From positions 1 through 51,305 of the forward strand of contig JAJZWV010000020.1 in assembly GCA_021846505.1 (NCBI GenBank): 51,305 nucleotides of DNA. Reading direction: 5' to 3'. The number at the start of each line of letters is the position of its first letter. The stretch's first letter is position 1. A program made the position numbers and the translations under genes. This document shows positions 7,241 to 12,923 of this stretch, in pieces. A model generated the notes under the pieces. That model had not been told where the DNA came from and made no database searches. It worked only from the letters and a program-made list of their open reading frames with translations. The stretch is from Bacillota bacterium. Lineage in GTDB: Bacteria; Bacillota; Sulfobacillia; Sulfobacillales; JAIMBI01.

Positions 7241-7839
7241 GGGCCCCGGTGCTGGCGCACTCCGCGCTGCACCCCCGGGAATTTCCACCCGAGGGAGTCC
7301 CGGAGCTGGCCATGCTGGGCCGCTCCAACGCCGGCAAGTCCACGCTCTTAAACGCCCTGGTGGGCGCGCGGGTGGCGCACGTGTCCCAGGATCCCGGCCG
7401 CACCCGCCGCATCCACTTCTACGACATGAATCAGCGCTGGTTTCTGGTGGATTTGCCGGGGTACGGATACGCCAAAGTGCCAACCCGCGTGCGTGCGGAA
7501 TTTGGACAGGCGGTGGATCACTATCTCAGCACGCGCCAGTCGCTGGTGGGCGCGATCCTCATCCAGGACGTGCGGCGCAACTTGGAGCCGGAAGAAGAGC
7601 TGCTGCTGGGGTGGTCGCACACCCGCCACATCCCGCTGGTGGTGGTCGCCAACAAGGCGGACAAGCTCAACCAGCGGGAGCGGCTGCAGCGCCAGAAAGC
7701 TCTCGAGTCCCAGTATCGCCAGCCTGTGCACATCATCTCCGCGTACCGCGGGACCGGCTTGGAGGCGGTGCGCGGCCAGCTGGCCGAGTTGGGTGTCGAG
7801 CCGCCCGGCCAGCGCGCGCCTGCTCCTCCTCCAACCTAA
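7237..7839 (+). CDS. ysxC: Ribosome biogenesis GTPase YsxC/EngB
   Basis: 200 aa. The GTG start overlaps the lon stop in GTGA, so translation is coupled. The TrmE-Era-EngA-EngB-like GTPase motifs are present: G1 GRSNAGKST (about residue 29), a G2 threonine in PGRTRRI, G3 DLPGYGYA, G4 NKADKL and G5 near ISAYRGTG. EngB is needed for late 50S subunit assembly. The C-terminus (GQRAPAPPPT) is a short proline-rich tail. The 3' end overlaps the convergent XRE-type gene by four bases. Confidence 0.95.
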   Translation: MRAPVLAHSALHPREFPPEGVPELAMLGRSNAGKSTLLNALVGARVAHVSQDPGRTRRIHFYDMNQRWFLVDLPGYGYAKVPTRVRAEFGQAVDHYLSTRQSLVGAILIQDVRRNLEPEEELLLGWSHTRHIPLVVVANKADKLNQRERLQRQKALESQYRQPVHIISAYRGTGLEAVRGQLAELGVEPPGQRAPAPPPT

Positions 7840-8759
7840 TCCGGGTCCGCCGCCGCCAAGCGCTGCCGCAGGCGACCCAGGTGGCGCGCGGCGACGGGGG
7901 CGCCGGACAGCCGCGCCATGCGCTGGAGCACCAGCAACACCTCGCCGTACTCGGATCGGTGCTCCCGGCGCCAGGCGGCAGGCCGGACCGCGGATGCCAG
8001 GGGGCGCGCGGCGGCGCGGAGGCTGGCGTGCAAGGGCCGTCCGGCAGGCCCTTCCGCGGCGAGGCGTGCCAGGCCGTCGGCCAGGATGTCCATCCACCAC
8101 GGGGCAGAGCCTGCGTCCTGGCACAGCCGAAGCGCGGCGCCGGCTCCCCGCCGCGCCAGCGTGACGGGCACCAGCGCCGCCGCCGCCGCCGCCCGATCCG
8201 GACCGGTGGCCAGGTGGGCCAAAAGTTCCTGCCCCTCCAGGTCGACTTGGCCGAACCGGCGCCGGTCTGCATGTTGGCCCAAGCGCTCCAGGCCGATGCG
8301 CAGGTGGTAGTCCTCGTGCGGGCGCCAGCGGTAAAAGCGATAGGCCTCCGCCAGCCAGTGAGAGACCTGCACGCGCTGGGTTCGGATCGCGAGGGGAGCG
8401 CCACCCAAGAGGCGCGCCGTCAGGGCATGAAACTCGGCCGGGGCGTTGGGTTCGCGCACCGCCCACCAATGGCGGTAGCCCTCGGCGAACCATGTGGCCC
8501 CATCCGGCTGCAAAAACCGGCTTTTGTACAGCCACAAGCGGGCGCGATGCCGCGCCTGATGGCGGCTGGCCGCCAGCGACACGGTGAGGTCACGGGCGCG
8601 CAAGCGCTCGGCCAGCAGCCGGAGCAAGTCGGCTGGCGGCGTGAGCACGCCATTTTCAATCTTGCTGAGATAGGTGCGGTCGCAGATGCCATAGCACGCC
8701 TGCCCCTGCGACAACCCAACCGCCTGCCGTGCATCGCGAAGGCGCTGTCCCAGTTCCAT
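7836..8759 (-). CDS. XRE-family helix-turn-helix regulator with a large C-terminal domain
   Basis: 307 aa. Residues 5-60 form a Cro/C1-type helix-turn-helix (RDARQAVGLSQGQA, then TYLSKIENGVLTPP). The following ~240 residues are helical, rich in Arg, Ala and Trp, and may be TPR-like as in Rgg/PlcR-type regulators, although I see no clear repeat. The start is ATG 8759, preceded on the minus strand by AAGGGTGA. It is divergent from the PEP-mobile-domain gene across about 325 bases, so it may regulate that gene as well as itself. Its ligand is unknown. Confidence 0.75.
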   Translation of the reverse strand: MELGQRLRDARQAVGLSQGQACYGICDRTYLSKIENGVLTPPADLLRLLAERLRARDLTVSLAASRHQARHRARLWLYKSRFLQPDGATWFAEGYRHWWAVREPNAPAEFHALTARLLGGAPLAIRTQRVQVSHWLAEAYRFYRWRPHEDYHLRIGLERLGQHADRRRFGQVDLEGQELLAHLATGPDRAAAAAALVPVTLARRGAGAALRLCQDAGSAPWWMDILADGLARLAAEGPAGRPLHASLRAAARPLASAVRPAAWRREHRSEYGEVLLVLQRMARLSGAPVAARHLGRLRQRLAAADPD

Positions 8760-9084
8760 CCCGTCACCCTTCTTTCGTGAGCGGTGTCGCAGCGCTCTGC
8801 GCTGGCACAGGTTGGAGCCGCCGGTCCGCCTCTCAGCGACCCCGTTGGCTACTTAAACGCCAGAGCGAGATCGGGGGTTGCAGAAATATAAAAAATAGAT
8901 AAAGACCCAGCCCCTGCCCGGTGTGTGCGCTGGCCTCCCCCATTGCATCGGAAGCTTCGGTGAACTACCCTGGCATTGCGATTGGGCTCGTGGCTCTGCT
9001 TGTGCGATTCGCGACCTGGGGTTGCTTCGTGAGCTTCGTGCCGTTGGTCGTCTCTCCGGGGCTAAGCGCGCTGGGAGGTGGATG
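8760..9084. other. Divergent intergenic region between the regulator and the PEP-domain gene
   Basis: No gene is supported here. An AT-rich block at about 8878-8906 (TTGCAGAAATATAAAAAATA) stands out against the high-GC surroundings and is the likely promoter zone, but no properly spaced -35/-10 pair is clear. A small palindrome, CAGCGC-TCT-GCGCTG (8790-8804), lies 30 bases upstream of the regulator start and is a possible operator. An open frame runs rightward from 8923 in frame with the next gene, but it lacks the ribosome binding site found at 9073. Confidence 0.4.
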
Positions 9085-10641
9085 ATGAGCCAAGCACCCG
9101 GGCCTGATTCGCGGCCGCGTGGCTGGCCCAGCCCTGAAGATGCCGAGCAGGAGTGGCACTACGACCGGGATCGGCAGGCGGGGCCGGTGCCGCCGCTGTA
9201 TGCGGACACCCTCGGGCGCTGGTGGCTGGCCGCCCGCGATGCCGCTGCGGGCCCTTCAGGCCTTTCCCCGTCGCGCGGACTGCGCTTGAACGGCTACTGG
9301 TACACGACGCGTGCGCCGGCAACCGCCCCTTCGGCCGCGCCGCCGGGGGGCCTCGGCTCGCGGTGGGAAGGGGAGTGGTCCGGGGCTCTGGCCGGCTGGC
9401 TGACCCCGTGGGCGGAGTGGCCGGTCGCGGAGCGGAGTCCATCCGAACTGGCGCTCCTGCTGATAAGATCGGACGACGAGGGCCCCCGGATCCTCCGAGT
9501 GGCGGAGGACATTCGGGCGGCGGCGACGGTGGTCTGGGACACGTTTCAGCGGGACTATCGCCAGTGGCTGGGAGCCGATGTGGCCCCGACCCTCACCGTG
9601 GCCGACAAGCCGGCCAACTACGAGACCTCCCGGGCGCTGTGGCGGCTGAAGGAAAAGGTGGCGGCGGCGGGTTCCGCAGCACCTTGGCTCCGAGAGGCCA
9701 TCCTGGATGCTTCGCCCGGCAATCTCCACGACACCCGGGCCGCACACCCCGCTGGGCGTGTGTGGCTTGCCGCGTGGGACCGATTTTTGGACCACCACGG
9801 GCGGCGCTGCGACGAGGGCGGCGGACTGGGGCCCAGCTGGGTGGAGGACCCTGCCGTGCCGCTGCGCCTGCTCCAAGCTTACTTGGACGATGTGCACCGT
9901 CCGGCCAACGAGCAGTGGCGCCAGGTGCGGAACCAGCGGGATGCGCTGGCGGCGGAGGCCGCTGCGCGGGTCCCGGAATGGGCTCACTTTGGCGCGCGCC
10001 TGTCGGAAGCGCGGTGGGCGCACGAGCTTCTTTCCCACCGCACGGATGATGTGGCCCAGCAGGTGGCTTATCGGCTCCGGCGGGTGGTCGCGGCCATCGG
10101 GGACTGCCTCGTGGAGGCGGGCTGTCTGACCCGGCGCGGCGAAGTGATTTACCTCACCCGGGAGGAGTGCCTGGCAGCGCTCCACAGCCCGGCGGTACCC
10201 CTGTACCCGCTGGCGCGGCGGCGGCAGGCCGAGGTGGAGCGCCAAGCCTCGTGGCCGCCTCCACCGGTGGCGGGAGGCCGGCACCGCCCCCGCATGGAGC
10301 CCACTCACACCTCAGACACGGCCTGGCAGGGAGTGGCCGCTGCCCCAGGCCGCGTCCGGGGGCCGGTGCGGGTGGCGGCGACGCTGGGCGAAGCCGCCGC
10401 GGCCCGCCCCGGGGAAATTTTAGTGGCCCCGCTGGTAACGTCGCAGTGGGCGGCGGGGCTGCCCCTGGTTTCCGGCGTCGTGGCGGCCGGCGGCGGCCAC
10501 CTGGCATCCGCGGGCCTGACCGCGGCCGAATTTGGCTTGCCAGCCGTGACAGGGATCGCCGGGGTGACTGAAGCGCTTCACAGCGGCGAATGGATTGAAG
10601 TGGACGGAACCCGAGGCACGGTGCACCGGCTGGACGGATAG
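9085..10641 (+). CDS. Protein with a PEP-utilising-enzyme mobile domain lacking the phospho-histidine
   Basis: 518 aa from ATG 9085 (GGGAGGTG at 9073-9080; ATG 9082 is the alternative). Residues ~1-410 are helical and end in a linker typical of rifampin phosphotransferase/PEP-synthase relatives (DCLVEAGCLTRRGEVIYLTREECLAAL). Residues ~413-518 are the swivelling PEP-utilising mobile domain (GVAAAPGRVRGPVRVA, PGEILVAPLVTSQWA, then GLPAVTG, and VDGTRGTVHRLDG). Relatives carry GGxx[ST]H with a catalytic His. Here the segment reads GGHLASAGLTAAEFG, with Ser about residue 475 in the His position and Ala before it. No N-terminal ATP-grasp domain is present. Phosphotransfer by the usual route is therefore unlikely. 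The protein could be regulatory, structural or a binding protein. The neighbouring divergent XRE gene hints at regulated expression. Confidence 0.65.
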   Translation: MSQAPGPDSRPRGWPSPEDAEQEWHYDRDRQAGPVPPLYADTLGRWWLAARDAAAGPSGLSPSRGLRLNGYWYTTRAPATAPSAAPPGGLGSRWEGEWSGALAGWLTPWAEWPVAERSPSELALLLIRSDDEGPRILRVAEDIRAAATVVWDTFQRDYRQWLGADVAPTLTVADKPANYETSRALWRLKEKVAAAGSAAPWLREAILDASPGNLHDTRAAHPAGRVWLAAWDRFLDHHGRRCDEGGGLGPSWVEDPAVPLRLLQAYLDDVHRPANEQWRQVRNQRDALAAEAAARVPEWAHFGARLSEARWAHELLSHRTDDVAQQVAYRLRRVVAAIGDCLVEAGCLTRRGEVIYLTREECLAALHSPAVPLYPLARRRQAEVERQASWPPPPVAGGRHRPRMEPTHTSDTAWQGVAAAPGRVRGPVRVAATLGEAAAARPGEILVAPLVTSQWAAGLPLVSGVVAAGGGHLASAGLTAAEFGLPAVTGIAGVTEALHSGEWIEVDGTRGTVHRLDG

Positions 10642-10859: not shown

Positions 10860-11459
10860 ATGGCGACGGAATGGACCCGGACCCAGATCGAGCCGGCGAT
10901 GAAGGACACTGTTTGGATCCGCCCCCTGTGCGCCGATGACTTGGAGCAATTGGTGGCGTGGGATGGCAACCCAGCCGTGGCCGAACTGATGGGCCAGCGC
11001 TTTGAGGGCGCCGACAGTGCGCGCGCGTGGCTGCTGGCGATGGGCCCCCGCCGCGGGCGGCTCGGCGTGGCGGTGATGGAAGGGCCCCGCCTGATGGGCG
11101 ACGTGGAGCTGGAGCACATTGTGTGGCGCACCGGTGAAGCGGAGCTGCGCATCTGCCTGGGCAATCCGGCTGAGTGGGGCCGCGGGTTGGGCACGGCGGC
11201 GATGCATCTGGTGCTGGCGTGGGCGTTTGGCCCGCTCGCACTGCGGCGGGTTTACCTCCGGGTGGCGGTGGACAACCGCCGGGCAGTGCGGCTGTACGAA
11301 AAGTGTGGGTTTGGCAAGCGTGCCAAACTACCGTCGACCGGGCGCCTCCGCCAAGCGCGTGCGGTGTGGCTGATGGAGCTCACGGCCGCGAGCTATGGGG
11401 GGGCGGCGGGGAGGCCCAGGGCGTCAGCCGCGGGCCGCGGATCCACCGTGCTTGAGTAA
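10860..11459 (+). CDS. GNAT-family N-acetyltransferase (RimJ/RimL-like)
   Basis: 199 aa from ATG 10860; ATG 10899 (MKDTVWIRPL) is an equally good family start. The acetyl-CoA fold is seen in the order VWIRPLCADDLEQLVAW, then GDVELEHI, the pyrophosphate-binding loop NPAEWGRGLGTAAM, and the terminal VDNRRAVRLYEKCGF. This pattern matches Acetyltransf_3 enzymes that acetylate ribosomal proteins, polyamines or antibiotics; the substrate is unknown. The C-terminal ~30 residues (GGAAGRPRASAAGRG) are low-complexity and overlap the convergent lipoprotein gene by 67 bases, so the true stop may be ill-conserved. The 218 bases upstream hold no supported gene. Confidence 0.75.
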   Translation: MATEWTRTQIEPAMKDTVWIRPLCADDLEQLVAWDGNPAVAELMGQRFEGADSARAWLLAMGPRRGRLGVAVMEGPRLMGDVELEHIVWRTGEAELRICLGNPAEWGRGLGTAAMHLVLAWAFGPLALRRVYLRVAVDNRRAVRLYEKCGFGKRAKLPSTGRLRQARAVWLMELTAASYGGAAGRPRASAAGRGSTVLE

Positions 11460-12295
11460 GGCGGCCACGCGGCCGGGCCCATGAGGGCGGCCGCGTGCTC
11501 GTAGATCGCGCGGGCCGGGTACGAGGTGCTGGGCCACGCTCCCAGGCCGTCCATGGCTGCAATGGCGGCGGCCAGCGCGTGCGGTGGGACGCCAGGGTAA
11601 TCCTGCCGCACCAAGTGGGCCACGGCCGCCGGAGAATGGGACACGATGTACGCCAGCGCCGCATTCAGGGCCGGCAGCAGGCGGGGCAACTCGGGGCTTT
11701 GGCCCGACAGCATCGCCTGCGGCAGTGGGCCGGTGGCCGCGCCCACATACGCGAGGACGGCGCCGCGCCCGCCCGCCGTGAGGGTCAGCGCCGGCAGCAG
11801 GGGAGCCAGCAGGTAAGGCAGCTTGCCCTCCCGGAACCAGCGCTGCGCCTCCGAGAGCGGCAGCGGGGTGATGGTGCTTCTCACGCCATGTTCCTTCAGC
11901 ACTACGGCAGCCAGCTTTAAGTCTGATGGCGCAGCATCCGCCGCGGTGAGCGGCACGCGGCCCAGGTCTCGCCACCGAAAGTTCGGGTCGGCGAGCGGGC
12001 TCACCAGCACTAAATCGGGGCGCACGAGCAGAAAGGCCGCAACGGGCGGCAACGGCTGGCTGGCCACGATGAGGGGCGCACGCCGCACCCACTCTAGCGT
12101 GAGGTTTGGATCCCTGACCCGGGCGGCGGCCACGTACAGCGGCAGCAGCGCAAGCGCGTGGGGTGTCGCCGCCACTTTCACCACCTGGCCTCGGGCGCGC
12201 GGGCGGGTGGCCCGCGGCCCGCACCCGGCCAGTGCCAGCGCCAGCGCCGCGGCGAACACCAGCCCCTGCCGCCCCCGCCATCCATCTGTCCGCAC
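11393..12295 (-). CDS. ABC-type substrate-binding lipoprotein (SsuA/ThiY-like fold)
   Basis: 300 aa from GTG 12295, chosen because GGAGG lies at 12303-12307 on the minus strand and the result is a proper lipoprotein signal. That signal is a basic N-terminus, the hydrophobic run LVFAAALALALAGC and a lipobox Cys about residue 25. The mature part begins QVVKVAATPHALALLPLYVAAA, as in NMT1/SsuA-type periplasmic-binding proteins. It contains further typical elements (DLVLVSPLADPNF, LKEHGVRSTITPLPL). It would sit on the outer face of the membrane. No permease or ATPase gene is adjacent, so its transporter is elsewhere or it serves as a sensor. The ligand is unknown. Confidence 0.7.
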   Translation of the reverse strand: MRTDGWRGRQGLVFAAALALALAGCGPRATRPRARGQVVKVAATPHALALLPLYVAAARVRDPNLTLEWVRRAPLIVASQPLPPVAAFLLVRPDLVLVSPLADPNFRWRDLGRVPLTAADAAPSDLKLAAVVLKEHGVRSTITPLPLSEAQRWFREGKLPYLLAPLLPALTLTAGGRGAVLAYVGAATGPLPQAMLSGQSPELPRLLPALNAALAYIVSHSPAAVAHLVRQDYPGVPPHALAAAIAAMDGLGAWPSTSYPARAIYEHAAALMGPAAWPPYSSTVDPRPAADALGLPAAPP

Positions 12296-12353
12296 TCGCT
12301 CGCCTCCTGCCGTCCGGCCGCGCCTAGCATGCCTTATGCGGTGGACGCGCCGG

Positions 12354-12923
12354 CTATGGCGGCTGGAACCCCGAAGTGAAGGACCTGATGCCCGTGAGCG
12401 CCTCGACCAGGCCCGACCGCCGGCTAGCTTGGCGCATGCGGCGCCTCTCGAGGCAGCGCGACCGTGGCGGCCGCGTCTTCCGGGCCAGCGCCAGCGCGGC
12501 CCAGTGGCGATAGGCAGGATTGCTGGCGTCAGAGGAGGCACCCGGTGGGCCAGCCCACAACATCGCCCGTGAGTGTGTCCAAGCGCCACCTGGCTCCGTC
12601 GGCAAACATGCCCAGAGCCGGCGGCCGGACACCGCTCGGAGGGTCAGACAGCCCGCCAGCTGGATTTCGCCTTCCTGCACGGCCTGGCGAGCGCCCAAGT
12701 TGCGCTGGCATTCGGCAGTGAGCGTGCCCAATTCAATGTCGGCCCCGCCGTGTCCCGGCGGACTTTCCAGCCGCACCGCGTCCGAGGAGAGGCCGAATCC
12801 GGCCTGCAGCCACACGGCGCGGATCGTGGTGTGGCCACCGGGCCCCGGATTGTCCCGGGCTGTGAGTGGCCAAGTCAGGGAGGGCGGAGAAGAAAGCGGC
12901 ACCCTCGGCAGCTTCGGTCATGG
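12354..12923 (-). pseudogene. Possible frameshifted hypothetical gene
   Basis: On the minus strand a start at about 12921 (MTEAAEGAAFFSALPDLATH, preceded by CTACGGAG) runs into a frame that looks non-coding after ~25 codons. A second frame, shifted relative to it, reads like real protein (GHGGADIELGTLTAECQRNL, GARQAVQEGEIQLAG) down to about 12450, with GC-rich third positions. The simplest reading is a single unrecognised gene broken by a frameshift. The alternative is that one or both frames are chance open frames in GC-rich DNA. This is the only candidate for a gene in the 790 bases between the lipoprotein gene and groES. Confidence 0.3.

Follow-up and report, generated by a model that had tools for sequence, protein, structure and literature searches.

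A histidine-less homologue of dikinase substrate/swivel subunits, encoded beside an XRE-type gene in one genus of Bacillota, is probably a ligand-binding or regulatory pseudoenzyme

What does a phosphotransfer protein do once its phosphorylated histidine is gone? The question is raised by an ORF in the analysed window, a contig stretch of 51,305 nucleotides from a Bacillota genome. The initial annotation described its product as a swivelling PEP-utilising mobile domain joined to a helical domain, dead in phosphotransfer, and proposed either a sensor or a new type of enzyme. The features of the locus are as follows.

7836–8759, minus strand: XRE-type regulator of 307 amino acids (HTH at residues 2–55), genus-restricted in the genomes searched
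8760–9084, no strand: common divergent intergenic region of 325 bp (238–242 bp in congeners) containing short islands of conservation
9085–10641, plus strand: His-less homologue of the substrate-binding and swivel subunit of two-component small-molecule dikinases, 518 amino acids, assigned on profile and orthologue evidence
9154–10284, plus strand: N-terminal helical domain of substrate-binding type (approximately residues 24–400), homologous to the rifampin-binding domain of rifampin phosphotransferase (RPH)
10033–10050, plus strand: SHRTDD, residues 317–322, in place of the E-D-H-N/H-F motif found in His-bearing homologues, with S317 at the position of RPH Glu667
10408–10617, plus strand: PEP-utilizers mobile (swivel) domain, Pfam envelope at residues 442–511
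10507–10509, plus strand: codon TCC of Ser475, the phospho-histidine position (S/P/P/S across four species)
10525–10527, plus strand: codon of Ala481, where His-bearing homologues have the invariant Arg that follows the His (Ala throughout the four species)

PEP-utilizers was the sole Pfam domain of the 518-residue protein, covering profile positions 3–72 of 72 with a score of 52.1 bits (cut-off, 23.1 bits). The loop of its active site reads AAGGGHLASAGLTAAEF; the motif extends from V466 to A481-E482-F and includes S475. Alignments with 14 His-bearing homologues placed S475 in the His column and A481, six residues further on, in the Arg column. A profile-profile alignment of the four-member orthologous clade with 13 His-bearing homologues (504 columns, probability 100%, E = 3e-59) likewise put the histidine opposite S475. 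The loss of both residues, first noticed in the sequence alone, is thereby borne out by alignment, and all of the approximately 40 other homologues inspected in a motif table keep the histidine. The swivel domain had been called otherwise complete, which holds for its nearly full Pfam profile and fails at the positions of T467, T451, and S420, all of which are changed.

The helical part of the protein is not a new domain. A profile of the window clade and three paralogues from the same genome matched residues 458–867 of the Listeria enzyme RPH-Lm (5FBS, E = 1e-53; 5HV1 was also matched), and the window protein alone matched residues 499–867 (E = 9e-14). RPH-Lm (PMC4844700) shares this homologous part, but it is a single chain with an ATP-grasp domain and keeps His825, Arg666, and Glu667, while the window protein is without ATP-grasp and has S475, L316, and S317 at these positions. 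The best partial NCBIfam matches, of up to 88 bits, were to PRK08296 ('hypothetical protein') and PRK06241 ('phosphoenolpyruvate synthase'), whose curated cut-offs lie far above these scores (at least 578 bits for those matched best). PEP synthase and PPDK combine PEP/pyruvate-binding and ATP-grasp domains in one chain, and Pfam found only PEP-utilizers here; annotation by this domain can mislead, as relatives bear names such as PEP synthase. The layout instead matches HpeH of the HpeHI system, CreH, and PpsA (PMC12167813), in which a helical substrate-binding domain is followed by a C-terminal swivel domain and the ATP-grasp domain resides on another protein; these subunits, compared here by published description rather than by alignment, have their homologous counterpart in the rifampin-binding and swivel domains of RPH. 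Phenolic compounds are the substrates of two-component dikinases, and rifampin is that of the related RPH. The window protein differs from HpeH in having neither the phospho-His (HpeH His581) of the T/S-x-x-G-G-x-x-x-H motif, nor the preceding T/S, nor an equivalent of Glu667, nor an adjoining ATP-grasp gene.

An ATP-grasp partner domain had been reported as absent, and no ATP-grasp gene was found within the window (contig C77); the three PPDK_N-containing ORFs of the genome are on contigs C7, C26, and C88. The combination of helical and swivel domains without ATP-grasp, regarded initially as an unusual arrangement, turned out to be the normal subunit form of two-component small-molecule dikinases. 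Absence of the ATP-grasp domain from the chain is expected, because this subunit type carries none and the same genome has two such pairs, on C26 and C88, where an ATP-grasp ORF directly precedes a helical-swivel ORF. What is unexpected for this subunit type is the missing ATP-grasp neighbour gene and the missing histidine. Three paralogues of helical-swivel form in the window genome bear the histidine. The third of them (C60, 5088–6749, plus strand) keeps GGALAH and lies upstream of genes for an ABC transporter ATPase and a LiaF-like protein. None of the ORFs scanned around it is an ATP-grasp gene, and this paralogue may rely on the corresponding subunit encoded on C26 or C88.

Orthologues of the window protein with 61–62% identity were found in three congeneric MAGs, all separate assemblies. 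Their sites read GGEPYAP, GGGPYAP, and GGDRHAS, with P, P, and S at the His position. Since three orthologues from separate MAGs also lack the histidine, its loss is not a sequencing error, which had been named initially as a way in which the reading could fail. Searches outside the genus, in 154 genomes of the class and, at E <= 1e-40, in 398 phylum-sampled genomes, did not recover the His-less protein; all genomes are drafts, and a gene missing from an intact syntenic block is more surely absent than one missing at a distant site.

The alterations extend well beyond the histidine. Fifty aligned positions were identical in at least 13 of the 14 His-bearing homologues, and 24 of these are kept in the window clade: 20 of 35 non-polar positions and only 4 of 15 polar ones. 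The 11 altered polar positions comprise 475 (phospho-His), 481 (Arg), 467 (the Thr ahead of the glycines), T451, S420, and H140; E317, D318, H319, and D324 of the helical domain; and D353, where the change is only from D to E and is confined to the window protein. Within the clade the replacements S317, H318, R319, A481, A420, V451, S453, A140, and E141 are uniform, and D321 and D322 are also fixed, so that SHR.DD is invariant in the four orthologues. S317 occupies, in all four, a position held by Glu in 14 of 14 His-bearing homologues, and nearly all split-type homologues in the motif table retain an EDHNF-like motif. In RPH, Glu667 hydrogen-bonds the phospho-His, and E667A abolishes rifampin inactivation (PMC4844700). 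Both chemical centres of the subunit are therefore altered, since the phospho-His site and the Glu667 equivalent have both changed, and the claim of completeness fails in the helical domain too.

Another phospho-carrier could in principle have taken over, and the window protein offers Ser475 itself and His472 of GGGHL, three residues ahead of the site, which had been suggested initially as a possible replacement. Across the four species, however, the H472 position reads H/P/P/R and that of S475 reads S/P/P/S. H472 cannot be a common substitute because of this variation, and no alternative histidine is conserved within the loop. The Glu667 equivalent, the Thr of the site, and the Arg are gone as well, and in HpeH the H581Q exchange left no detectable activity (PMC12167813). 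A phosphotransferase with a different carrier is thus largely refuted by the orthologues and is very improbable. With the loss present in all four congeners and reaching a second active site in the helical domain, the description as phosphotransfer-dead holds: the window protein is very probably incapable of His-based phosphotransfer, and its status as a pseudoenzyme is strongly supported.

Could the gene simply be decaying, or the motif be an artefact of assembly? The degenerate motif and the origin of three orthologues from MAG assemblies would be compatible with this, but the frames are open and full-length in four separate assemblies at approximately 61% identity or more, the neighbouring genes are conserved, and dN/dS values are in the range of 0.09–0.30. 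For the whole gene they were 0.23–0.30 by NG86 (orthologue pairs) and 0.09 and 0.15 by YN00 (two pairs), and for the swivel domain 0.15–0.23 and 0.07–0.14, respectively; synonymous distances near saturation for the window pairs make all these values rough. Together, the orthologues and the pattern of substitutions refute decay or artefact, to which we give next to no weight; the His-less protein is kept intact by purifying selection. In the tree the window clade was fully supported (100/100) and had a stem of 1.39 changes per column, and the other clades of the genus have shorter stems (0.48–0.75). A single episode of change that preceded the split of the four species, with constraint afterwards, is in line with this. 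The forks of the tree backbone are weak, and the parent paralogue is not settled by the tree.

Constraint is unevenly distributed: 71 of 95 positions in residues 176–270 are invariant among the four orthologues, against 4 of 13 in the catalytic loop. Two alternatives were considered. The first is a new enzyme, in which the recast helical pocket (SHR.DD) catalyses a reaction without phospho-histidine. S317, H318, R319, D321, and D322 do not vary among the four species, as one would expect of new catalytic residues, but no cofactor motif was found, the loop has no conserved nucleophile, Pfam recognizes only the swivel domain, and the cassette contains no pathway genes. We consider such an enzyme improbable; the lack of a conserved nucleophile at the loop favours a sensor or regulator over the new enzyme type proposed at the outset. 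The second alternative is that the dead subunit acts as a dominant-negative or regulatory partner that tunes the activity of the cell's own ATP-grasp subunits or active helical-swivel paralogues. With genes for two ATP-grasp subunits and three His-bearing paralogues, the genome supplies possible targets, and HpeH is a mixture of monomers and dimers whose pairing with HpeI was inferred to be transient (PMC12167813). Against this, conservation within the swivel domain is lowest in the loop that contacts ATP-grasp in family members, unlike what would be expected of a docking decoy, and a paralogue of the C26 type was not found in the G004 assembly, which may be incomplete, so the C26 pair may not be obligate. 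A partner role is somewhat less implausible than a new enzyme and still unlikely.

The reading as a ligand-binding or regulatory pseudoenzyme draws further on the neighbouring gene. The divergent XRE gene noted initially was confirmed at 7836–8759 on the minus strand, and the two genes are back to back in all four congeneric species. Of the two features to be sought in homologues, the serine and the XRE neighbour, only the neighbour proved constant. On those contigs of the genus that extend far enough, the two-gene cassette is flanked by ysxC and a GNAT gene. Two sister-genus genomes (G001 and G006) keep the order lon, ysxC, GNAT, a conserved minus-strand gene, and valS without the pair, and in G001 approximately 80 bp separate the ysxC and GNAT frames. 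The XRE gene and the His-less gene are thus present or absent together at this locus, which upholds the proposed link between them. Their joint presence and absence, the divergent orientation, and the short conserved islands between them suggest that they form a functional pair. Control of the His-less gene by the XRE protein would be a case of guilt by association: no operator common to the four intergenic regions was found, palindromes differ between species, and a promoter/terminator scan of the divergent region returned none.

The XRE proteins of the congeners are 67–69% identical overall, and the 250 C-terminal residues (60–307) are well conserved, yet past the HTH neither Pfam nor NCBIfam gave a match. 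Searches for this protein gave one weak match to the HTH region in 101 class genomes and none at E <= 1e-12 in 299 phylum-sampled genomes. PADLOC linked the His-less protein to no defence system and gave the XRE protein nothing beyond weak HTH-type matches. The GNAT gene (10860) was considered as a further member of the cassette and rejected, because sister genera keep it beside ysxC without the pair; the conserved gene at 11393 was rejected because sister genera have it there without the pair. The latter (11393–12589, minus strand) is a conserved neighbour of the GNAT gene both in the window genus and in two genomes from sister genera, and has no Pfam match.

The explanation we prefer, with a probability of about 55%, is a genus-specific pseudoenzyme derived from the substrate/swivel subunit of a dikinase, probably ligand-binding or regulatory and linked to the XRE protein. 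In its ancestor, the helical domain would have served as the binding site for a small molecule, and a phospho-histidine that a separate ATP-grasp subunit had charged would have supplied the phosphate. By the time the four sampled species split, the phospho-His, the positioning Glu, and most other invariant polar residues of the active site had been lost, while purifying selection continued to maintain the fold and different residues became fixed in the helical domain. As to the identity of the ligand and the role and regulation of the protein, we infer the following. The helical domain would have kept the ability to bind a small ligand, over which the swivel domain would act as a non-catalytic lid. 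The protein would report or buffer this ligand, and the divergent XRE protein would control the His-less gene or act with its product. That the two constitute a new ligand-sensing pair, with a dikinase subunit stripped of its chemistry as the small-molecule receptor, is a tentative extension of this model. The high conservation of part of the helical domain could also reflect a protein interface instead of a ligand pocket. An AlphaFold model from the alignment of the window protein and its three orthologues had a mean pLDDT of 36.7 and was set aside. Scans of viral contigs for further homologues gave one match each.

The locus illustrates that this fold can persist without its chemistry, in a selected clade lacking both His and Glu, and it offers a testable case in which the scaffold of an antibiotic or phenol kinase may have been turned into a receptor or regulator with a co-occurring XRE gene. 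No described His-less RPH-like or XRE-linked case was found in the open-access literature, a search scope outside which most subscription journals fall. The nearest parallels are partial. VadK (Rv1127c) of Mycobacterium tuberculosis (PMC13400623) is likewise a dikinase relative minus one domain, proposed to be a metabolic regulator instead of performing the ancestral catalysis, but it keeps the ATP-grasp domain and the catalytic His422, autophosphorylates, and has lost the substrate domain instead. In Bacillus subtilis, the PEPut domain of PykA, also a swivel domain, is reported to regulate its host enzyme and replication (PMC9009071); it differs in being fused to pyruvate kinase, having no helical substrate domain, and keeping the TSH motif. 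The pyruvate kinase of the window genome (contig C57) and those of its congeners also carry a C-terminal PEPut domain. The histidine is missing from it in all four species (GFTSS, GLTTA, GLTSA, and GLTSP), and three sister-genus pyruvate kinases keep GGLTSH or GGLTCH. This is a second loss of the histidine in the same genus.
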